Shown: positions 265 through 25,108 of the stretch, in pieces
How the letters are laid out: every line of letters starts with the position of its first letter
Position numbering within the stretch: position 1 is the first letter of the stretch
NCBI RefSeq assembly: GCF_000003605.2
Contig: NW_003116458.1
Coordinates: 222,884 to 247,991, forward strand
Origin: Saccoglossus kowalevskii
Taxonomy: Eukaryota > Hemichordata > Enteropneusta > Harrimaniidae
Direction of reading: 5' to 3'
Length of the DNA stretch: 25,108 nt
Notes under the pieces: model-generated
Database searches by the model: none
The model's input: the letters and a program-made list of their open reading frames with translations, nothing else
What the model was told of the DNA's origin: nothing
Program-made: the position numbers and the translations under genes

Positions 265-665
265 AGGTACTACATGTGAACCACTTACAGATTTGTTCAT
301 TTCATGATGATATCTTCAATTCTCTAATTTTGCTTAATATTTTTGTCATTTTTGGTAAAAAGTGATATTTTGGACTTCTCGTTAAAAACTGCAAGTCAGA
401 TTGTTTTTATATTACATATACAGGTACTACATGTGGACCTCTTTCAGATTTGTTCATTTCATGATGATATCTTCAATTCTCTAATTTTGATGAATATTTT
501 TGTCATTTTTGGTGAAAAGTGATATTTTTGAATTCTTGTTGAAAACAGCAAGTCCCATTGCTTTGATACTATACATATTGTTCATTTTCTAATGATATCT
601 TCTGTTCTTTTATTGAAATGTGCATTGCTAACAGCAGAGCTATCTCAGCCGACTGGCTGCTTGTT
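265..665 (-). mobile_element. Helentron/pearl-like element, family 1, interrupted copy
   Basis: On the minus strand it starts at about 665 with the family 5' end AACAAGCAGCC, the TAGCTCTGCTGT subterminal repeat and the 'gcaatgcacatttcaat' block. It then contains about two 157-bp units (marked by 'acaaatctgaaagaggtcc' and 'aagtgatatttt' on the plus strand). It stops where the MITE of 1-264 has inserted. Its 3' hairpin end should lie upstream of the window. Confidence 0.8.
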
Positions 666-3620: not shown

Positions 3621-3808
3621 AATGAGTATGATCTCTACATGGGTTCACTATTGGACAACCAATCATCACAATCCAGCCAAGTACTATACCAACAAGTCAA
3701 AAGTCTAGCTACCAGCGGTGCTGCTGCTACACGAGAAGTCGCTGCAGAAAGGCATCGAGTCAAGCATTTAGAAATGGAGGCAAAGAAATTGCTTAAAAAG
3801 AATGAGAG
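3621..3808 (+). CDS. Coiled-coil gene, exon A (internal, first visible)
   Basis: The acceptor is a pyrimidine-rich tract ending tttgctttcag at 3620. The donor is GAGAG|gtaggg at 3809. The phase 0 start gives Asn-Glu-Tyr-Asp and the exon encodes 62 residues plus two bases of a split Ser codon. The first 25 residues are Ser/Gln-rich (SSQSSQ). From about residue 38 the sequence turns into a basic/acidic helix (REVAAERHRVKHLEMEAKKL) that starts the coiled coil. Reading upstream of 3621 is also open, but that stretch is AT-rich intron-like sequence, so I start the exon at the splice site, not at an ATG. Confidence 0.85.
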
Positions 3809-6800
3809 GTAGGGACATTTATTTTAGATGCCTATACATTTTGATTGAATGTTTAGATCATTATACATGTACCTTCACATTGACCATATGGAAGTTTCTC
3901 TTTGGCATATAGATCGGTTCGAGCATAACTTAACCGTGAACTCGCCTTCAATGGCTCAAATCTAGCTCTAGCTTGCTTTCAAAATTATTATAGATCTGAA
4001 ATAATTATCTGAAATGATTGAATGATTGGCTTTACAGTTACCAGGTTGGAAGTAAAGTTGAGCTGTGACTGTATTGTATATTCTGTCTAATATATATTTC
4101 AGTCAGTTGCACTACATGTAGTACTAAGAGTACTAGTATGTTCATTACGCACATAGCCATTGACATGTGCATATGAAATGACTACACCAACGACTAACAA
4201 TTTTGCAGTATTTCACTGTTTGAAGTCGTACATTTCCCTGTGATGCAGTGTTGTGATGTATTAATATATAAAGAACATATGAGCTAGAAATCAAACCGAT
4301 TGTAGGCACTATAACTTGAAACTCTTCTATTATTTCCAGCTTGAGGGAGGAACTTGAGATTGAGAAAGACGGCCTCGCAAATGATCCACCACTAAAAGAA
4401 AAACCAAAAAAATCAATGAAAGTATACCAAGAGGAGAAAAAACCCAAAGACACAGCAGAGCAGATCGAGGCATTACATAATGCGATACTGGAACAGATAG
4501 ATGTACTGAGACAAGTCAGAGACGAACTAAAGGAGAATTATGTTCCAAACTCTGTTTGTCAACAATTAGAACAGTGTGTCAAAGAAACTGAAGTCGAAAT
4601 ACAGAGAGTATTGAGTACAAATGATTACTTAGAAAGAGCTGTCGAGGTAAGTTGGTATATGGAACAAAAAAATCATATGAAAGTTTTATTCATGAATGGA
4701 TGATCATTAACAGTGCTCCCCTGAGAGATGTTGTGATTTCAAAAACTTTGCATCAGGTGTATAAATACAAAAAAAAATGTTTCTCAGGGTGTTCAATTTC
4801 ACTGAGAAATGTAATTGGTTCCACACGAATTGAACCGATATAAGGCATACATGTAGTCATGGTAACTCTTATACGAGCTTGAAATGTTTGTTGAGCTGAA
4901 ACTTTCCAGCTTTTGCTTCTAGTTTTAATGCAGATGTCGAGTATGGACAATAAAATATTAAATGCACTAGCATCTCTGTGAATGGACCGGACCATGTGCT
5001 CTGTTTACAGTCAGTGGGTGGAATCTATGACATGAGCCACACAATCTATTTTAATTACAAAAATGTATATTTCAAACAAGCAAAATTCAGCTAAATGAAT
5101 TAGACTCTTGGATTGTAAAGTTTTTGAATGTGAATACCTGTACTTGTTTTGATATTATATGTATATTGATATATACTTATATTTTTGCCATTTTTGGTAA
5201 AAAGTGATATTTTTTATCGCAAGTCTGATTTCTTTGATAAATATAGGTACCTTAGGTGGACCTCTCTCAGATTTGTTTTTATGATGATATCTTCAATTCT
5301 CTAATTGAAATGTGCATTGCTATTTCAGCCGAGAGACTGTTTTTTCAAATAGAACTTCTTTGTATAAGAGGCCACAGAGATCTGGTTGAGTGGACAGAGC
5401 CAAATGACTGGTTTTTGCTCTCCGAATAATGTTCCATTTATTAATGTCATCACATCTAATGTCCCCCTTGCCATGGCAATGATGGTAATTGGAATCAGGG
5501 TAGAGAATAGACTGGCGCAGTCGGAGCGATTAAAAAAATCGCGAAATGGAGGTGTTAGCGCGAAATCCCCTGTAACTGCGAAATAACCCTGACTGGTTTT
5601 TTCTGCATGGCCCTCTACAGACACTGCAGGAACCCGTCGATTTTTCAACAGGTAATTATGTTAATGAGTGTTCTAATTGACAATCATCTAAGCTAATCAC
5701 AATGTCTCTTCAGCTGATCTCTGACCGCGAAGACGTCGGCTGATTGTAGCACCTGTTTTTTTTTTATTCTACGACTAGTACGAGTTACTTTTTTTACACA
5801 TTGTGATGAATTAGAAACGACGACTACGACAAACTCGAATTTCAACGTGCCGCCATGTTGGGTCTACAGTGTGATCTTTACCATGTTGACCTCATTATGC
5901 ACGTATTTCCGCGCCCACCTCATTATAATATGTGCACCATGAATATTTAAAAGCAATGAATTTCCTTCAGAGTAAACCAGTCGGAGTGATTTTGCAGGTA
6001 CAGGAGATTTTGTGCTAACACCTCCATTTCGCAATTTTTTTTATTTTATTTAAACAACAAAAACAAATTAATCGCCCGACTGCGCCAGTCTAGGTAGAGA
6101 ATGGAACAGTATTTATAGGAGCAAAAACAATCTCAATCAGAAGATCTTGGTAGTTATTTGCAAATAATTGACACTGAGTAATATTGTCAGCCTTTTTAGT
6201 CCCCGTTCGGACGTAGTCCGAAAACGGGAACTTATGTTTTGACCTCCGTGTGTCCGTGCGTGCATGTGTGCATGTGTGCATGCGTCTGTGCGTGCGTCCA
6301 AACCTGCATCTTAGAAATGCCTGGACCAATCACAATCAAACTTCACACATACATCATACATGAAATTATACATATGCACGTCAATTTGTTTCACGATCTG
6401 ATTTAAGATTTTTGTGCTAAAAATCATCAAAATCAAGCATTTCTCGGCTGTTTACAGATGGGTTTTGTTCAAACCTTGTATATACGTTAGACATTATAGG
6501 AACTTGATGCAAATAATTTTGTTTTAATTTTGCCATTTTGTTTTAATGAATGTGGTTCTCGTGCCATAACTCTGACTTGCTTTCACTGATTATGTTCAAA
6601 TTTTAAATATTCATTATACATCATGTCATAGATTGACAGATATATTGGTTTGACGATCCTATTCAAAATGGCCAAATGGTTGCCATTTTTGTGCAAAAAA
6701 ATCATCAAATATCAAGCATTTCTGGCATTTATGGATGGATTTCTTTCAAACTTGGTACATATTTTAGACATTACAGGTTCCTCCTGCACATCATTTAATT

Positions 6801-9800
6801 TTCAGATGGGATTCAAAATGGCTGTCTGGCGGCCATATTGTTTTAATGAATGGGCTTCTAGGCCCATATCTCTGACTTGTTTTGACTGATTATGTTCAAA
6901 TTTTAAATATTCATTATACATCATGTCATAGATAAACAGATATATTGGTTTGACGTTCCTATTCAAAATGGCCGAATGGTGGTCATTTTTGTGCTAAAAA
7001 AATCATGAAATATCAAGCATTTCTGGCATTTATGGATGGATTTCGTTCAAACTTGGTAGATACATTAGACATTACAGATTCCTGATGCACGTCATTTTTT
7101 TTTTCTCAGATTGGATTTAAAATGGCTGACTGGTGGCCATTTTATTTTAATGATTGGGCTTCATATCTCTTAAATGCTTTGACTGATTATATTCAAATTT
7201 TATATATTCGTTATACATCATGTTATATATATATATATACATGTATTCAAAATGGCTGATTTTGAATGCTGTTCCAGAGCAATATATCTCAATATGGACA
7301 AGTACTTTTTTGATGATCAGATACAAATGTCAATCATTTTAATGTTAAAAAATCATATTCCTGACATGGTTATATTCCAGCTATATTACTATAAACAAAA
7401 CTATATATCTTAAATTTGATAACTAACGGGGACTGTGCCATGCATGGCTTGTCTTTATAAATTATTTGTCATAGATGGATGAGTTCATTCAAGATCAGCC
7501 AGCACTTGTGTTGAAGGTAATTCACAGAACTATGGAGCCTTGACTATGCATTAGATCAGCAATCATTATTAGTCTGTCTCCTTTTTATAAGATATCTTGT
7601 TTTGTTCGCAGACAGATTTTTTATGCTATCAGCATGTGTCCCAGAAGGACAAAATGAACCGTTAATGTCAGCGTTTATGTCACTGCTGTCACGTTTAGTT
7701 TACAACTCATTGGGTTGTGTAATGACATGTCACTCTTTAAAGGTGACTATTATGTGGAGGTGAATGCGAGATGCATTCTGTTTCCCATCCCAATCACTGA
7801 CTTTCATATTTGATAAATATCTGGATTCCCAGTTGGAGATCTGAAGCAAAAGCAGTGTGAAATCTGTAATTATGAAAGGTGTGCAGCTCGGCAGTTTTTG
7901 CCTGCCTCTTGTGTAATGGAAGGTATTATACATGTATGTACATAGTTGAACAAATTCTGTTGTTATCTTTATTGTTTTTTGGCATGTGTTCTATCCCCCT
8001 CCCCCAAATCTGACAGTTTCTGTTATTTTTAGCTCTGCTGTTGACTTCGTTGAGTGGAGCTAGTCATACTGTCATCATTATCATCGGTATTTTGCATTGT
8101 CTTTTTACATTTTTGACTTCTTACTGAAAAGTGCAAGTCTGATTGGTTTTTAACTTTGTAACTCATTTGTTCATTTCATGCAGATATCTTTAATTCTAAA
8201 ATTTTTGGCAAAAAGTGATATTTTCATCTTTTGGAAAACAGCAAGTATGATTGCTTTGATACTTACATACCTAGGTACCTGTACCTAAGGTGGAGCTTTG
8301 TCAGATTTGTTTCTTTTGTAATATTTTTATCATTTTTAATAATTTTCTACATTTTATACATTTTGAGTGGATCTCATTTTTGTTCATTTTGTGTTGATAC
8401 CTTCAATTCTTAAATTTTAGTCAATATTTCTGTCAACTTTGCTATTGTTGACTACTTATTGAAAATTGCTTGCCTGATTAGCTTGATATTTTATATATGA
8501 GCGAGCCTTGGGAGGACTTTTCACGGTTGAGGATTTTCATAAGGATAATTTAAAATTGAAAATTTCCAATTTTAGTAAATATTTTTTATTTTTGTAAGGC
8601 TGCCTGTTCTTTATATTCAATGGACCAAACATACAAGCTGTGATTGGTCAGATTCTACAAACTATGATTGATCAGATTCTACAAACTGTGATTGGTCAGA
8701 TTCTACAAACTGTGATTGGTCAGATTCTACAAACTGTGATTGGTCAGATTAAACAAACTGTGATTGGTCAGATTCTACAAACTGTGATTGGTCAGATTCT
8801 ACAAACTGTGATTAGTCAGATTAAACAAACTGTGATTGGTCAGATTCTACAAACTGTGATTGGTCAGATTCTACAAACTGTGATTGGTCAGATTAAACAA
8901 ACTGTGATTGGTCAGATTCTACAAACTGTGATTGGTCAGATTCTACAAACTGTGATTAGTCAGATTAAACAAACTGTGATTGGTCAGATTCTACAAACTG
9001 TGATTGGTCAGATTCTACAAACTGTGATTGGTCAGATTAAACAAACTGTGATTGGTGAGATCATACGAAATGTAATTGATCAGATTATACATATTGTATA
9101 ATTAAATTGAGAACTGGATTTTTTGTTCTTCTTTGTCAGCTCTCCTATAGTTGTTCTGTGTTAGTTCAAGTCCATGCGTACCTACACAAATACATTTTTT
9201 AAATACACTTTTTAAAAATCAAGTTTATTGTCCACTTGTGTGCATTTTTGGACATTATCAATCTGCATTTGGTTTGCCATGTAATCCCATGTACATGATT
9301 CGGTTGTGATATTAGGCTGATACCAATTTACAACCCTTTAAAAAGCGCAGTTCAGTGAAGCACAATCATCTTTGTATTTTAACTACACCAGTAACAGTTA
9401 AAGAAACAACATGTAAGGCTGCCCATTTAGAGAGTACACCCTAAATCCACTCTCAGTCTGTGCACGTGTATAGTGTGTGCCCAGCATACAAATATAGATT
9501 GAATTCAAATTCTACTTTCTTGTCTTTTTATAGCAACTTGAGCATGAATTAGAAAAGCTTTTGGAGAAATCAAGAGCTGATGAGAATGAGAAAAGGTAAG
9601 CCTGGTTGATTAATTAATTTAAAGTTTTATGAACGATGGGTGACAACTAAGTTTCAGTATTTAGGGTTTAATTGTTGACTGCATGTTTGACTGAATTTAT
9701 TGCATCGAGTGAAGTCATGTTTGTAAAATATATTATCGGTATTAAATCACTAAATATTTCATTCACATTTAAAGCCCTGGGAATGCTTGAAGGTAATAGC

Positions 9801-11129
9801 TGTTGATTGCATGATAAATTATTAACATTACTTTTAATGCTCCATTGCAATGCCTATTTACTGCCTTTACTCTCAAAGCACCTATTAACATTTTCAATCA
9901 GTGTTTCATTTATTACCCACAATTCCATACTTGGATTTATCAAACATCAGTTATAAGTTAAGTGGATCATATTAAGACGTATAACGGTCATACATGAATA
10001 ATAGACCATTTTCCGTTCACTGCGAGAATCACACGTTATGCGTGCAATCGAACGTAAAAACAGGACAAACAAAAGTCATAGCGTCATAGTGGCGTCAAAC
10101 ATCGCGTGGGATTCAACAAACTTAAAATACGAAATAAAGAAATTTGAGTTGAAAATCAAATCGTTCGATTTTTACAGCAGACGTTCGACGCGCGTCTTTC
10201 ATGCATTTCGCGAGATCTCGCAACTGTACGGAAAATCACCTATTTACAGATATCATTATTCATATGGTGTGCTGGTTTACATTTCAGAGAAGTATATACT
10301 ATTTTCTGATGCTTTGTGAAAAGATTTGCTATAGTTGTAATTATACATCTTCAAATGTGAAATACCCCCCCCCCCCCCCCCCCAACAAAAACATGTGCAA
10401 TGAACCAAACTTTGAAGAAAAAAATCCACAAGCTTATCATCCTGGTTACCAAGATTTATAAATGGTGGAAAAGACAAAACACAAGCTGTTCAGTAACAAT
10501 AAAAATTGAACTTTTTTTGATAATAAATTGAAGAACAAGATAAAACATTTTATCATTTCATTACAATTCACATATACATTGTATACTCTCAAGCAAACAT
10601 CCCAACATAATTAAAGAACTTGCCAATTATATTTACACAACACAATAATTTATTTAACATTTAAATACTATAGTTACATACTTTTAATAATATTTTACAT
10701 ATATCTTGTTATTATTTTAAAACTCTTTTTTGCTGTACTTATCCTATGTAAATCTTTTTACACGGAGGCAATAAAGTTATTATTATTATCACGTGAGAAC
10801 TCCTATGCATTCACTTTGAACCTATTCTTGCAGATCACATACAATATTTATAGAACTGATACAATTTTCTGGTCATCCAGTAGATTTTAAGTCTTGTTGT
10901 AGATATTACATGTTTATTCCAACATTGAACTTGGACTAAGGCTCAATACAATACCGTATCTTAACATGGTATCGCTCATATTAGCAGACTGCACATTGCA
11001 AAATGAATTTCCGGTTTGTAATATTTCTATTTGTTTTCTTACAGGAAACTTCTCAAGAAGCTGAAGCTTATATCAGACAGTTCTACAGATGCCTCAGAGT
11101 CAGAGTCATGCCATGATTCGTCGACCTAA
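3621..11129 (+). CDS. 3' half of an unrecognised coiled-coil protein gene (five exons, 227 residues)
   Basis: The coding parts are 3621-3808, 4340-4646, 7475-7516, 9534-9595 and 11045-11129. Their lengths (188, 307, 42, 62, 85) total 684 nt, or 227 codons plus TAA. All four junctions use GT-AG and keep frame (split codons AG|C and AG|G, the others phase 0), which is strong internal evidence. Residues about 38-62 (heptad-like, rich in Ala/Arg/Lys/Glu), 63-165 and 180-208 are charged and helix-prone, typical of coiled coil. The end is a Ser/Asp/Glu-rich tail. No signal peptide, membrane segment or catalytic motif is visible, so a cytoplasmic or cytoskeletal/centrosomal scaffold role is only a guess. 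The protein continues N-terminally because exon 3621 opens on an acceptor in phase 0. I do not recognise the family. The introns are heavily loaded with transposons. Confidence 0.85.
3809..4339 (+). other. Intron A-B of the coiled-coil gene
   Basis: GT-AG bounded and AT-rich. No repeat or reading frame of note was found inside it. Confidence 0.8.
4340..4646 (+). CDS. Coiled-coil gene, exon B
   Basis: The exon is bounded by tattatttccag|C and GTCGAG|gtaagt, a near-perfect donor. The first base completes a Ser codon from exon A and 102 codons follow, ending in phase 0. The product has a charged helix (LREELEIEKD), a Lys/Pro-rich linker (about residues 78-95 of the visible protein), then a long heptad-like segment with regularly spaced Ile/Leu/Val and two Cys residues (SVCQQLEQCV). 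This is the longest and most convincing coding exon in the window. Confidence 0.9.
5178..5346 (-). mobile_element. Helentron/pearl-like element, family 1, degraded short copy
   Basis: It carries one unit's worth of the family 1 tandem repeat ('ccatttttggtaaaaagtga', 'cctctctcagatttgt', 'gatgatatcttcaattct') and a damaged 5' end ('gaaatgtgcattgct...cagccgagagactg') that lacks the TAGCTCCGCTGT motif. No 3' hairpin is present. It lies in intron B-C. Confidence 0.75.
5499..5507. repeat. Left target-site duplication GGTAGAGAA of the 585-bp MITE
   Basis: Exact 9-base match to 6093-6101 on the other side of the element. Confidence 0.8.
5508..6092. mobile_element. Complete 585-bp MITE with 9-bp target-site duplication
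   Basis: The terminal inverted repeats start TAGACTGGCGCAGTCGG at 5508 and end at 6092. The similarity continues about 95 bases inward (GCGAAATGGAGGTGTTAGC on both arms), with the right arm carrying an extra AT-rich stretch of about 25 bases. The flanks are identical: GGTAGAGAA at 5499-5507 and at 6093-6101. A 9-bp duplication suits Mutator-like or Merlin-like transposases; no transposase is present. The outermost 13 bases GACTGGCGCAGTC are themselves palindromic. It lies in intron B-C. Confidence 0.85.
6093..6101. repeat. Right target-site duplication GGTAGAGAA of the 585-bp MITE
   Basis: Exact 9-base match to 5499-5507. Confidence 0.8.
6198..6232. repeat. 3' terminal hairpin of family 2 element
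   Basis: CGGAC-GTA-GTCCG forms the inner stem. AGTCCCCGTT pairs with AACGGGAACT outside it, with one mismatch and two unpaired A. It sits two bases from the putative terminus (TTAG on the plus strand, CTAA on the element strand). Confidence 0.75.
6245..6299. repeat. GTGCGTGCATG-type microsatellite inside family 2 element
   Basis: Alternating GTGTGTCC, GTGCGTGC and ATGTGTGC runs form an imperfect simple repeat just inside the 3' hairpin. It matches in position the GACGGAC repeat of family 1. Confidence 0.8.
7475..7516 (+). CDS. Coiled-coil gene, exon C (42-nt microexon)
   Basis: This 14-codon exon lies between ttatttgtcatag and TTGAAG|gtaatt and is phase 0 on both sides, so skipping it would keep the frame. 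It encodes MDEFIQDQPALVLK, an acidic-then-hydrophobic stretch that bridges the helices of exons B and D. The acceptor is only 22 bases from the edge of a transposon (6196-7452). Support is the splice signals and the phase fit; it is too short to judge by composition. Confidence 0.7.
7517..8028 (+). other. Intron C-D, proximal part
   Basis: No exon or repeat recognised; ordinary intron sequence before the inserted element at 8029. Confidence 0.6.
8029..8523 (-). mobile_element. Helentron/pearl-like element, family 1, old copy
   Basis: The plus-strand left edge is TTAG with the family 3' hairpin (8031-8061, AGCTCTGCT...AGTGGAGCT, with mismatches). Diverged 157-bp units follow ('aaaaagtgatattttc', 'gctttgatacttacat', 'tcagatttgtt'). 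The GACGGAC microsatellite is lost and the 5' end is not recognisable, so the right boundary is approximate. It lies in intron C-D. Confidence 0.7.
8629..9099. repeat. 24-bp minisatellite with 72- and 144-bp higher-order periods
   Basis: About 19 tandem copies of a 24-bp unit, typically ACTGTGATTGG + TCAGATTCTACAA. Units alternate in the order CTACAA, CTACAA, AAACAA (72-bp period). Every second AAACAA unit carries ATTAGT instead of ATTGGT (144-bp period); two full 144-bp blocks appear identical. Outer units (8640-8680, 9050-9099) are more diverged. Because 24 is a multiple of 3, one frame stays open from 8640 to 9101 (153 residues, VIGQILQT repeats), which I regard as incidental. It lies inside intron C-D. 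Fifteen of 19 units keep ATTGG, an inverted CCAAT motif. Confidence 0.95.
9100..9533 (+). other. Intron C-D, distal part
   Basis: No feature recognised apart from a good pyrimidine tract just before exon D. Confidence 0.6.
9534..9595 (+). CDS. Coiled-coil gene, exon D
   Basis: The acceptor is cttgtctttttatag and the donor is GAAAAG|gtaag. The exon begins in phase 0 and ends with two bases of a split Arg codon. It encodes QLEHELEKLLEKSRADENEK, an almost ideal coiled-coil heptad with Leu at the core positions. It joins exon E in frame. Confidence 0.87.
10010..10230. other. CpG-rich patch with an open frame, unidentified
   Basis: A dense cluster of CG dinucleotides (for example TTCGACGCGCGTC and TTTCGCGAGATCTCGC) in an otherwise CpG-poor intron. 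A frame at 10038-10319 (93 residues, Lys/Arg/Tyr-rich) is open across it, without splice context or a domain I recognise. It could be a recent unmethylated insertion, a relic of a mobile element or an internal regulatory patch. Confidence 0.35.
10365..10383. repeat. Poly-C run (19 C)
   Basis: Uninterrupted homopolymer; the exact length is prone to sequencing error. Confidence 0.9.
10735..10790 (+). mobile_element. Retrotransposon-like 3' tail with (TTA)n
   Basis: 'acacggaggcaataaagtta' followed by TTATTATTATTA resembles the 3' ends of invertebrate non-LTR elements, which finish in AATAAAG plus a trinucleotide repeat. The body upstream is not recognisable, so only the tail is called. Confidence 0.35.
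11045..11129 (+). CDS. Coiled-coil gene, terminal coding exon E with stop codon
   Basis: The acceptor is tttgttttcttacag. The first G completes Arg, then KLLKKLKLISDS continues the basic helix. The protein ends in a Ser/Asp/Glu-rich tail (SSTDASESESCHDSST) and TAA at 11127-11129. The acidic Ser run resembles a casein-kinase-2-type phosphorylation region; this is inference only. Confidence 0.87.
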
Positions 11130-14895: not shown

Positions 14896-14959
14896 AACAA
14901 GCAGCCTATCGGCTGAGATAGCTCTGCTGTTAGAAATGCACATTTCAATTAAAGAACTG

Positions 14960-16260
14960 AAGACATCATCAGAAAATGAACAATATGTATAGTATCAAAG
15001 CAATCGGACTTACAGTTTTTAACAAGAAGTCGAAAATATCACTTTCTACCAAAAATGACCAAAATATTCACCAAAATTAGAGAATTGAAGATATCATCAC
15101 GAAATGAACAAATCTGAGAAAGGTCTACATGTAGTATCTATATATGTAATATCAAAGCAATTGAACTTTTGGTTTTTAACAAGAAGTCGAAAATATCACT
15201 TTTTACCAAATATGACAAAAATATTCACCAAAATTATAGAATCCAAGATATCATCACGAAATGAACAAATCTGAGAAAGGTCTACACGTAGTATCTAAAT
15301 ATGTAATATCAAAGCAATTCAACTATTGGTTTTTAACAAGAAGTCGAAAATATCACTTTTTATCAAAAATTACAAAAATATTCACGAAAATTAGAGAATT
15401 GAAGACATCATCACAAAATGAACAAATCTGAGAGAGGTCCACATGTAGTACCTATATATGTAATATCAAAGCAATCGGACTTGTGGTTTTTAACAAGAAG
15501 TCAAAAATATCACTTTTTACCAAAAATTACAAAAATATTCACCAAAATTAGAGAATTGAAGATATCATCACAAAATGAACAAATCTGAGAGAGGTCCACA
15601 TGTAGTACCTATATATGTAGTATCAAAGCAATTGGACTTGCGGTTTTTAACAAGAAGTCGAAAATATAACTTTTTACCAAAAATTACAAAAATATTCACG
15701 AAAATTAGAGAATTGAAGATATCATCACAAAATGAACAAATCTGAGAGAGGTCCACATGTAGTACCTATATATGTAATATCAAAGCAATCGGACTTGTGG
15801 TTTTAACAAGAAGTCGAAAATATCACTTTTTACCAAAAATACAAAAATATTCACCAAAATTAGAGAATTGAAGATATCATTACAAAATGAACAAATCTGA
15901 GAGAGGTCGACATGTAGTACCTATATATGTAAATATCAAAGCAATTGGACTTGCGGTTTTCAACAAGAAGTCGAAAATATCACTTTTTACCAAAAATGAC
16001 AAAAATATTCACCAAAATTAGAGAATTAAAGATATCATTACAAAATGAACAAATCTGAGAGAGGTCCACATGTAGTACCTATATATGTAATATCAAAGCA
16101 ATTGCACTTGCGGTTTTCAACAAGAAGTCGAAAATATCACTTTTTACTAAAAATGACAAAAATATTCACCAAAATTAGAGAATTGAAGATATCATCATGA
16201 AATGAACAAATCTGAGAGAGGTCTACCCAAGGTACATATACACCAAGTATCAAAGCATTC
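14960..16260 (+). repeat. Tandem array of about eight 157-bp units
   Basis: The landmark AATCTGAG recurs at 15111, 15268, 15425, 15582, 15739, 15894, 16052 and 16209, spacings of 157, 157, 157, 157, 155, 158 and 157. Units are around 90% alike by eye. The last unit changes to 'tctacccaaggtacatatac', a variant also found at the last unit of the copy at 21567-22832. Confidence 0.93.
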
Positions 16261-16354
16261 AGGCTTGTAGTTTTCAAGAAGAAGTCGAAAAAGTAAAACA
16301 TTGACACGGACGACGGACGACGGACGACGACGACGGACAATCACTCATATGATA

Positions 16355-16385
16355 AGCTCCGCTCGACAAAGTCGACAGCGGAGCT
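16355..16385. repeat. 3' hairpin of family 1 element, inner copy
   Basis: AGCTCCGCT-CGAC-AAA-GTCG-AC-AGCGGAGCT: a 13-bp stem with a two-base bulge and three-base loop, followed by AA (CTAA). Confidence 0.9.
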
Positions 16386-16435
16386 AAAAAGTAAAACATT
16401 GACACGGACGACGACGGACAATCACTCATATGATA

Positions 16436-16466
16436 AGCTCCGCTCGACAAAGTCGACAGCGGAGCT
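16436..16466. repeat. 3' hairpin of family 1 element, outer copy
   Basis: Identical to the hairpin 81 bases upstream. The element ends CTAA at 16465-16468. Confidence 0.9.
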
Positions 16467-16468
16467 AA

Positions 16469-21322: not shown

Positions 21323-21566
21323 AACAAGCAGCCTCTCAGAGAATTAAAAATATCATTACAAAATGAACAAATCTGAGAGAGGTCCACATGTAGTACCTAT
21401 ATATGTAATATATAAGCAATTGGACTTGCCGTTTTTAACAAGAAGTTGAAAATATCACTTTTTACTAAAAATAAAAATATTCATCAAAATTAGAGAATTT
21501 GAGATTTTGACATGAAATGAACAAATCTGAGAAAGAACCATCCAAGGTACTTGCATATCAAATTTG
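21323..21566 (+). mobile_element. Helentron/pearl-like element, family 1, doubly truncated copy
   Basis: It starts with AACAAGCAGCCTCTC, then jumps straight into a 157-bp unit (AGAGAATT...), skipping the rest of the 5' end. After about 1.4 units it stops at 'catatcaaatttg' and abuts the intact 5' end of the next element at 21567. It has no 3' hairpin. Confidence 0.75.
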
Positions 21567-22832
21567 AACAAGCAGCCTCTCGGTTGAGATAGCTCCGCTG
21601 TTAGCAATGCACATTTCAATTAAAGAACAGAAGATATCATTAGAAAATGAACAATATGCATAATATCAATGCAATGGGACTTGCTGTTTTCAACAAGGAT
21701 TCAAAAATATCATTTTTCACCATGGTTTTTAACAAGAAGAAAATATCACTTTTTACCAAAAATGACAAAAATATTCATCAAAATTAGAGAATTGAAGATA
21801 TCATTACAAAATGAACAAATCTGAGAGAGATTCACCTGTAGTACCTATATATGTAATATCAAAGCAATTGGATTTGCAGTTATTAACAAGAAGTCGAAAA
21901 TATCACTTTTTACCAAAAATGACCAAAATATTCACCTGACCAAAATTAGAAAATTGAAGATATCATCATGAAATGAACAAATCTGTAAGTGGTCCACATG
22001 TAGTACATATATATGTAATATCAAAGCAATTAGACTTGTGGTTTTTAACAAGAAATTGAAAATATCACTTTTTACCAAAAATATTCACCAAAATTAGAGA
22101 ATTAAAGATATCATTACAAAATGAACAAATCTGTGAGAGATCCACATGTAGTACCTATATATGTAATATCAAAGCAATTGGACTTGCGGTTTTTAACAAG
22201 AAGTCGAAAATATCACTTTTTACCAAAAATGACAAAAATATTCACCAAAATTAGAGAATTGAAGATATCATCATGAAATGAACAAATCTGTAAGTGGTCC
22301 ACATGTAGTACCTATATATGTAATATCAAAGCAATTGGACTTGTGATTTTTTACAAGAAGTCGAAAATATCACTTTTTACCAAAAATGACAAAAATATTC
22401 ATCAGTATTAGAGAATTGAAGATATCATCATGAAATAAACAAATTTGGGAGTGGTCCACATGTAGTACTTATATATGTAATATCAAAGCAATTGGACTTG
22501 TGGTTTTTAACAAGAAGTTGAAAATATGATCATGAAATGAACAAATCTGAGAGAGGTCTACCCAAGGTACATATACACCAAGTATCAAAACATTCAGGCT
22601 TGTAGTTTTCAAGAAGAAGTCGAAAAAGTAAAACATTGACACGGACGACGGACAATCAATCATATGATAAGCTCTGCTCAACAAAGTCGACAGCGGAGCT
22701 AAAAAATTCTGACTTGCGGTTTCGAAGAAGAAGTTGAAATTGTAAAGTTGGCGACGACGGACGCCGACGACGACAGACAATCAGTATTAAGAACAGCTCT
22801 GCTGTGTCGACTTTGTTGACAGCAGAGCTAAA
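21567..22832 (+). mobile_element. Helentron/pearl-like element, family 1, near-complete copy with two 3' ends
   Basis: The 5' end AACAAGCAGCC and subterminal repeat TAGCTCCGCTGT (21590-21601) are intact. About five 157-bp units follow, some shortened. There are two 3' modules: one with GACGGAC microsatellite and hairpin at 22670-22700, and a diverged one (22703-22832) with its own GACGACGG run and a longer hairpin (AGCTCTGCTGT...ACAGCAGAGCT) ending CTAA at 22832. The second module is not a simple copy of the first, so it may come from a different subfamily. Confidence 0.82.
22797..22830. repeat. Outer 3' hairpin of the 21567 element
   Basis: AGCTCTGCTGT pairs with ACAGCAGAGCT (11 bp). GTCGAC and GTTGAC extend the stem imperfectly. 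It is followed by CTAA. Confidence 0.85.
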
Positions 22833-23866
22833 AAAGTTGGTATAACAGGATTTGCTATTAATAGATTTTTGCATATAATATGCATAAATTAGTTCCCCAC
22901 AATTACTCTATGTTGGGATTGACTGATGATTAAATGCACCACACACTCACTCACTCACTCACTGTCAGCCAGGGATTGGAAGCAGGTAAAACCCATTAAA
23001 TATAATCATCATTTTCCTTCAAGCATAGAAGGTGATATGATTTGCTGAAAACCATTTGTGCAAATTATGGTATATTGTTATTAGTTTGAAAACAAAAAGA
23101 CTAGATATACTGTATCTAAAAACGATAGTTACAATTTGGCTGTTCTAAACTACTTTAATTTTTCCTGGGGGGGTGTCTAATTCCATCCTATTTGACACAA
23201 ATTAAATTACTTGAATAAAGGACTGCTTTGTTTATTTGGTTGCTATGTTACAAAAATGTATCAATGCTGAATTCAAATGATGGCACTCACAACACTGTAC
23301 TATTTAAAGCTGCTGGTGATTTTTCACAAGATACATTTTATCAGTTTTTCTGTGATATTTGATTCCAGCTTCTGTTTTTTGTCTTGTTGCCTGAAGTAAT
23401 AACTTTTGCATTATCTCGATCTCAATTGTGCACAAGATTGAAAGGAAATTTTTCTCATAATATATGAAAGAAAATGATAAACAGTAGCAGAAAATTGTGG
23501 GTGGTTATATAGATCTGTAGAGCTGACACGTGTATGACGTAGTGCTCTGACCAGGAAATGCAATTTAGTCTGTTGTACCATAGTCAACTTTTGTTACCTT
23601 GCACAAAATAAATCAGCAAATTGTTCACGACCTGTAGTCAATGAACTATGCTTCCCATTTGGTTCAAAATTAACAAAGAAATATGAAGTGAAGTCTTCCA
23701 TAGTGTTGACTGCGTAAGCTTTAATAAACCCAAGTGCGTCTTTGTGGGGTCAAACTGGTGTCATATGCTAATCACTTTCATTGTTGCGTGCAGCCTGATT
23801 TATGATTGCTAGCAATTTAGACAAAACCCCATCTTTTGATTGGCGAATAAACAACGCTTTTTTTCA
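22833..23866. other. No gene identified
   Basis: Intergenic, AT-rich. An ACTC microsatellite is listed separately. No splice-bounded frame or repeat family recognised. Confidence 0.5.
22944..22963. repeat. (ACTC)5 microsatellite
   Basis: Five uninterrupted tetranucleotides. Confidence 0.9.
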
Positions 23867-24112
23867 AACAAGCAGCCTGTCGGCTGAGATAGCTCCGCTG
23901 TTAGCAATACACATTTCAATTAAAGAACTGAAGATATCACTAGAAAATGAACAGAACAATACGAATAGTATCAAAGCAATTGCTATTTTCAACAAGAAGG
24001 TACATATACACCAGGTATCAAAGCATTCAGGCTTGTAGTTTACAAGAAGAAGTCGAAAAAGTCAATCACCCATATGATAAGCTCTGCTCGACAAAGTCAA
24101 CAGTGGAGCTAA
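23867..24112 (+). mobile_element. Helentron/pearl-like element, family 1, compact copy without tandem core
   Basis: A 246-bp element with both ends: AACAAGCAGCC, TAGCTCCGCTGT and 'tttcaattaaagaac' at 5'; 'tatcaaagcattcaggcttg', 'cccatatgataag', hairpin (24080-24110) and CTAA at 3'. The 157-bp array and the GACGGAC microsatellite are absent. It shows the minimal unit on which the longer copies are built. Confidence 0.85.
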
Positions 24113-24788: not shown

Positions 24789-25108
24789 AACAAGCAGCCT
24801 GTCGGCTAAGATAGCTCCGCTGTTAGCAATGCACATTGCAATTAAAGAACAGAAAATATCATTAGAAAATGAACAATATGTATAGTATCAAAGCAACAGG
24901 ACTTACTGTTTTCAACAAGAATTCAAAAATATCACTTTTCACCAAAAATAATCATCAAAATTAGATAATTTATTGAAGATTTCACCACGAAATTAACAAA
25001 TCTGAAAGAGGTCCACATGTAGTACCTATATATGTAATATAAAAGCAATCAGACTTGCGGTTTTTAACAAGAAACAAGAAGTTGAAAATATCACTTTTTA
25101 CCAAAAAT
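24789..25108 (+). mobile_element. Helentron/pearl-like element, family 1, copy cut by the window end
   Basis: An intact 5' end (AACAAGCAGCCTGTCGGCT, TAGCTCCGCTGT, 'gcaatgcacattgcaatt') is followed by about two 157-bp units. The 3' end lies beyond 25108. Confidence 0.85.

Follow-up and report, generated by a model that had tools for sequence, protein, structure and literature searches.

Two sequence-unrelated repeat families of Saccoglossus kowalevskii share one layout and are very probably HINE-type rolling-circle elements

Results

The stretch of DNA studied here, referred to as the window, comprises 25,108 bases of the hemichordate Saccoglossus kowalevskii (contig C1004, positions 222884-247991; the host genome searched amounts to 572 Mb in 4,830 contigs). 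Part of one gene falls within it, with coiled-coil-like exons located by eye at about 3621-3808, 4340-4646, 9534-9595 and 11045-11129. Repeats of two families, termed family 1 and family 2, lie inside the introns of this gene and outside it. An initial annotation, made from the sequence of the window, had proposed that these families are unrelated in sequence, follow a single blueprint and belong to a Helentron-associated class of transposon. Their parts were compared with those of HINEs (Helentron-associated interspersed elements), a non-autonomous group within the Helentron/Helitron2 branch of rolling-circle transposons.

Family 2

The family 2 copy in the window was resolved into the following parts.

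6196..7452, plus strand: complete family 2 HINE copy (TT and the element to GCTTGT), longest open reading frames (ORFs) 79 amino acids
6198..6207, plus strand: 5' subterminal inverted repeat (subTIR) AGTCCCCGTT, on the other strand the 3' hairpin arm of the initial annotation
6223..6232, plus strand: inverted repeat (IR), the inverse of the 5' subTIR with one mismatch in this copy
6247..6297, plus strand: GTCC/GTGC-type microsatellite on the 5' side (Tandem Repeats Finder, TRF)
6532..7131, plus strand: tandem core of two units, diverged from each other and each about 300 bases long (direct repeats)
7425..7434, plus strand: 3' subTIR AACGGGGACT
7437..7448, plus strand: 3' palindrome GCCATGCATGGC, followed by the TTGT terminus

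The order on the plus strand is TT, AGTCCCCGTT, a short stem, the inverse repeat, the GTCC/GTGC stretch, the core of about 300-base units, AACGGGGACT, GCCATGCATGGC and TTGT, and the IR at 6223-6232 together with 6208-6220 closes a 5' hairpin. The unit length of about 300 was determined from direct repeats spaced 277-301 bases apart; units of this length were absent from the TRF output. Two ORFs of at least 60 amino acids overlap 6196-7452.

From 2,762 first-look candidates, 40 full places were scored, consisting of the window and 39 other fetched loci (loci are numbered L and contigs C). The 3' ends were compared in 38 cases (37 loci and the window, two loci being excluded for a bad end match) and the 5' ends in 27 (26 loci and the window; 13 loci were excluded, 11 without a match to the 5' query and two with a partial one). 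The boundaries proposed in the initial annotation, 6196..7452, were borne out by this comparison. The terminal GCTTGT was conserved at every letter (G38 C37 T38 T38 G37 T37 of 38 ends), with T as the next base in 29 of the 38. At the other end, each position of the TT that precedes AGTCCC was T in 26 of 27 copies, and each position of a further TT, one variable base outward, in 25 of 27. Genome-wide, the exact end words TTAGTCCCCGTTCGGAC and GTGCCATGCATGGCTTGT occurred in 883 and 723 copies, respectively, while the reversed words gave 0 each. The longest exact end-to-end inverted match in the window copy was 10 bases, a length equalled by 1 of 1000 shuffles. Family 2 gave no match among phage records, and the end patterns were found at 0 and 0 loci in viral contigs.

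At one locus (L041:1604, minus strand) a family 2 3' end stands immediately before another family 2 5' end in a head-to-tail pair (GCCATGCATGGCATTTTAGTCCCC). Additionally, the family 2 copies at L020 and L034 have nearly identical 3' flanks, so that the site is seemingly duplicated in the genome or in the assembly.

Family 1

Copies and parts of family 1 in the window were as follows.

14896..16386, minus strand: copy running from its 5' end at 16386 to its 3' end at 14896, with a tandem core of 157-base units
16387..16467, minus strand: second 5' end, a tandem duplicate 81 bases upstream of the first
21567..22701, minus strand: inner copy of a nested pair, inside an older member of the family; it yields an empty-site comparison
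23867..24111, minus strand: short copy of 245 bases without the tandem array
24789..25108, minus strand: copy with its 3' end at 24789, interrupted by the end of the window
265..665, plus strand: 3' part with the terminus GCTTGTT
8030..8500, plus strand: degraded copy that retains a 5' end; its right limit was set by eye and is approximate

The copy at 14896-16386 shows, on the minus strand, TTAGCTCCGCTG, a stem, its inverse copy, a GTCC/GTCG microsatellite, 157-base units, CAGCRGAGCT, a CAGCC..GGCTG palindrome and CTTGTT. The core unit measured 157 bases by TRF, and with the direct repeats of family 2 this upholds the unit lengths given in the initial annotation, 157 and about 300. The family 1 palindrome is CAGCCGATAGGCTG, the counterpart of GCCATGCATGGC in family 2.

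Here 1,846 candidates led to 40 scored places, and ends were taken from 20 loci (38 regions chosen) and the window. The ends were located by BLAST with end sequences, and matches ending far short were left out. GCTTGTT was terminal in all 27 3' ends, TTAGCT stood at the start of all 15 5' ends, and the exact 3' word CAGCGGAGCT was present in 24 of the 27.

The doubled 5' end at 16387-16467 might be the trace of a rolling-circle or recombination product. The nested pair spans 21323-22833, with the inner copy at 21567-22701 and the outer limits set by eye.

A layout shared without sequence similarity

The two families could not be aligned; the best blastn match between them, 28.3 bits, equalled the best of 50 shuffles. 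The arrangement of their parts was the same. Among elements with both ends, which were picked by BLAST with those ends so that counts of intactness are conditional on that choice, 23 of the 28 from family 2 and 14 of the 15 from family 1 had the 5' subTIR, the IR and the 3' subTIR all in place, allowing one mismatch at most; two pairs of elements in this set have a common 3' end (L032 and window 14896). The IR offset was 25 bases in 25/28 family 2 and 22 bases in 13/15 family 1 elements, and the 3' subTIR stood 18 bases from the element end in 28/28 and 24 bases in 15/15, respectively. The initial claim of two unrelated sequences with one layout is thus confirmed.

We also applied a rule that takes no account of family (TTAG plus a 9-mer, its inverse within 50 bases and the inverse again before CTTGT) to both strands of 562,524 letters. 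At these loci, which had been chosen for holding both families, the rule gave 33 matches, 18 to family 2, 15 to family 1 and 0 to any other sequence. Reversed sequence gave 1 match and three block shuffles gave 0 each.

Folded with RNA parameters, the 5' ends of both families form the same two-part hairpin from the subTIR and IR, with an outer stem of 8-9 pairs, a 2-base bulge, an inner stem of 5-6 pairs and a 3-base loop; the bulge lies on opposite arms in the two families. Both families also have TTAG behind a T-run, a 3' subTIR that begins with CTAAC, a 3' palindrome, and GCTTGT as the terminal bases. The features of HINE membership found in both are central tandem repeats with a GTCY microsatellite, a subTIR pair and a 3' palindrome or stem-loop. 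A third, sister family in L048, L043, L032 and L064 has a 5' hairpin of the AGTCCCCGTT kind and a different interior. Its positions are L048:3422, L043:3622, L032:1144 and L064:3745.

Insertion sites

The flanks of the 43 elements with both ends were joined by script and compared with all fetched loci except L001-L010. Another fetched locus spanned the joined flanks in seven cases, five of them clear (78-95% identity) and two weak (L045, 75%; L046, 74%). The clear sites belong to the window copy 22701-21567 (compared with L031) and to copies at L066, L031, L033 and L032. No target duplication was present at any of the seven sites, and the number of T residues, or a T/G letter, varied at the junction of the five clear ones. 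At the sites compared, insertion is into T-rich DNA without target duplication.

Search for an autonomous partner

The initial annotation had called for a search for an autonomous Rep-helicase element sharing the ends of these families. Such machinery is encoded in the genome, where the PF14214 profile gave eight matches from 11 candidates and the Helentron endonuclease and helicase gave six and 11 matches. The best Rep match lies in a Helentron at C2261:3146900-3152964 (loci L071 and L079), with a Rep of the Helitron_like_N type (PF14214, 108 bits), DUF6570, Exo_endo_phos (46 bits) and PIF1 (86 bits). Rep, helicase and endonuclease occupy separate open frames, indicating that this copy is interrupted or spliced. 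After the endonuclease, C2261 and C1801 carry the hairpins GGGTGTG..CACACCC and GGGCGTG..CACGCCC, which differ from each other in one stem pair, at both of its bases. By eye, a stretch of about 140 bases with inverted ends (AGTGTTCTCCCC / GGGGAGAGCACT) follows the C2261 Helentron.

We also paired family 2 ends, among the first listed places of both end words and on chosen contigs common to both lists. A 3' end lay on the same strand within 20 kb of 18 of the 56 5' ends listed. The distance was 0.6-2.3 kb for 15 of them, 9.5 and 9.8 kb for two and 17.6 kb for one. The pairs at C342:681175-690703 (9.5 kb) and C22:55449-65215 (9.8 kb), with exact family 2 ends on one strand, were considered as candidate autonomous copies and set aside as probably separate copies. 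Inside these pairs lay none of the listed Rep (8), endonuclease (6) or helicase (11) matches, although a strongly diverged partner would escape this comparison.

Other repeats in the window

A short repeat at 5511-6095 resembles a miniature inverted-repeat transposable element (MITE), with terminal inverted repeats GACTGGCGCAGTCGG...GACTGCGCCAGTC identified by eye. A fragment of it at 1-264 adjoins the family 1 copy at 265. A minisatellite at 8632-9091 consists of 19.2 copies of a 24-base unit (91%, TRF).

Discussion

Both families are very probably HINEs. From the layout of their parts, rather than from a coding partner, they appear to run from TTAG to GCTTGT. On this strand the 5' end consists of a T-run, TTAG, the subTIR, the IR and the GTCC microsatellite, and the 3' end of the subTIR, the palindrome and GCTTGT. 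Published HINEs have a subTIR 2-4 nucleotides from the 5' end and a palindrome near the 3' end (Thomas et al. 2014, PMC4067079), and oyster HINEs carry a subTIR, an IR and a GTCY/GTCC microsatellite on the left and a subTIR with a palindrome on the right (PMC7492417). This order is found only on the strand opposite to that of the initial annotation, which had read from ACAAGC to CTAA and taken CTAA for a CTRR 3' end. That reading of CTAA is therefore an artefact of strand choice; CTRR, like the 5' TC, is a trait of canonical Helitrons (PMC5148889). The Helentron-associated class that it had proposed, with subterminal inverted repeats, a tandem core, a microsatellite and a hairpin, does agree with the published HINE layout.

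The closest likeness is to DINE-1 and related HINEs, which share with the present families a subTIR at the 5' end (with an IR close to it in DINE-1), a microsatellite, central tandem repeats, a 3' subTIR followed by a palindrome, and T-rich targets that are left unmodified and vary in T number (PMC4067079). In contrast to these, both families here terminate in GCTTGT. Similarly, Cg_HINE of Crassostrea gigas combines a subTIR, an IR and GTCY/GTCC on the left with a satellite-like array and a subTIR and palindrome on the right, and occurs as many families per genome (PMC7492417). The array units differ, measuring 157 and about 300 bases in the present families, and the likeness is one of layout as described. 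Helitron2 elements of the FoHeli group resemble the two families in their asymmetric terminal inverted repeats, with the 3' repeat set inward, and in the hairpins at both ends of FoHeli1 and FoHeli2. They differ in that FoHeli1 and FoHeli2 read TCAG...ATTTT and that coding copies of FoHeli are known (PMC5148889). Taken together, the two families are further members of the known HINE kind, and their shared blueprint is the HINE blueprint.

Several observations weigh against this assignment. No autonomous element with the ends of family 1 or family 2 was found in the genome. The 3' tails of the Helentrons at C2261 and C1801, the two that could be read (by eye, and over 701 bases of C1801), have another hairpin and do not end in GCTTGT. 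The C2261/C1801 Helentron lineage is thus probably not the partner of these families, and the C2261 Helentron was rejected as a candidate on account of its different 3' tail. Similar ends within the Rep loci L071-L079 amounted to chance-looking palindromes. The spacing at the 3' end is also tighter than that published for mite HINEs: from subTIR to end there are 18 bases in family 2 and 24 in family 1 instead of about 38-60, and from palindrome to end 4 and 6 bases, respectively, instead of 8-35. For the family 1 copy at 14896-16386, one differing base limits the longest exact inverted match between the ends to 6 bases, a length equalled by 358 of 1000 shuffles. Additionally, for 36 of the 43 joined sites none of the fetched loci spanned the junction. 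The five clear empty sites are all located in repeated DNA, namely two family 2-type cores (L031, L033), a sister-family interior (L032), a family 1 core (L066) and the older family 1 copy of the window. Alternative alignments at the family 2 site of L031 have a gap at the junction.

The main alternatives concern the direction of the elements and their branch. If the families were of the same class and read as initially annotated, they would begin with ACAAGC and end, like canonical Helitrons, in a hairpin and CTAA; the letters CTAA do fit CTRR, and a hairpin does lie near that end. We regard this as highly unlikely, because ACAAGC stands in place of the canonical 5' TC and because, by comparison with HINEs, the wrong end would then hold three parts, namely the subTIR next to the terminus, the IR and the GTCC-sense microsatellite. 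Canonical Helitrons (Helitron1) belong to the rolling-circle class as well. They are not known to cause target duplication. However, neither their 5' TC nor their fixed A^T insertion occurs here, the family 2 CTAA being followed by A 13 times, by T 10 times and by C 4 times in 27 copies. Of the insertion proposed initially, between T and T or A and T without duplication, the T-rich target and the lack of duplication stand at the five clear empty sites, while the fixed T of A^T is missing in that direction. A canonical Helitron was rejected on its ends.

Somewhat less improbable, yet still unlikely, is that the families are of Helitron2 type, mobilized by a partner without an endonuclease, rather than derivatives of Helentrons, a reading that overlaps with the joint Helentron/Helitron2 branch favored above. 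Hairpins at both ends together with asymmetric inverted repeats fit the description of FoHeli (PMC5148889), and the Helentron 3' tails that were found do not match the family ends. Against this, a TT target and a GTCC microsatellite are described for Helentrons and HINEs (PMC4067079, PMC7492417), and non-coding ends cannot separate Helitron2 from Helentron. Foldback or MITE-like transposons of the DDE type with subterminal hairpins would also be short, AT-rich and furnished with inverted repeats near the ends. We give this explanation next to no credence and reject it, since the lack of target duplication at the five clear empty sites argues against DDE transposons and the ends are asymmetric, with one subTIR at the terminus and the other 18-24 bases in.

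For the two families as HINEs, a Rep-helicase supplied by another element, perhaps with an endonuclease, would nick the 5' end, as is typical of this class. One strand would then be peeled off, halting at the 3' palindrome, and the single strand would be joined into a T-run. The subTIR/IR pair is the probable recognition site, and the tandem core may be passenger sequence of variable unit number. One transposase, or sister ones, may move both families, as the initial annotation had suggested. Helentron families that share subTIRs and differ inside have already been published (PMC4067079). For GCTTGT common to families with different subTIRs, a literature search for Helentron with CTTGT, which left figures and supplements outside its scope, found no report. 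It is conceivable, if doubtful, that one transposase moves families with different recognition repeats by reading shape and a fixed terminal code. The letters of the subTIR would then be free to change, provided that both copies and the IR match.

The results illustrate how a wrong choice of strand makes a HINE resemble a canonical Helitron, since TTAG on the other strand reads CTAA. The two families are otherwise routine repeats for annotation. As well-bounded HINE families with common ends and no common sequence, they provide good material on what a Helentron transposase recognises.

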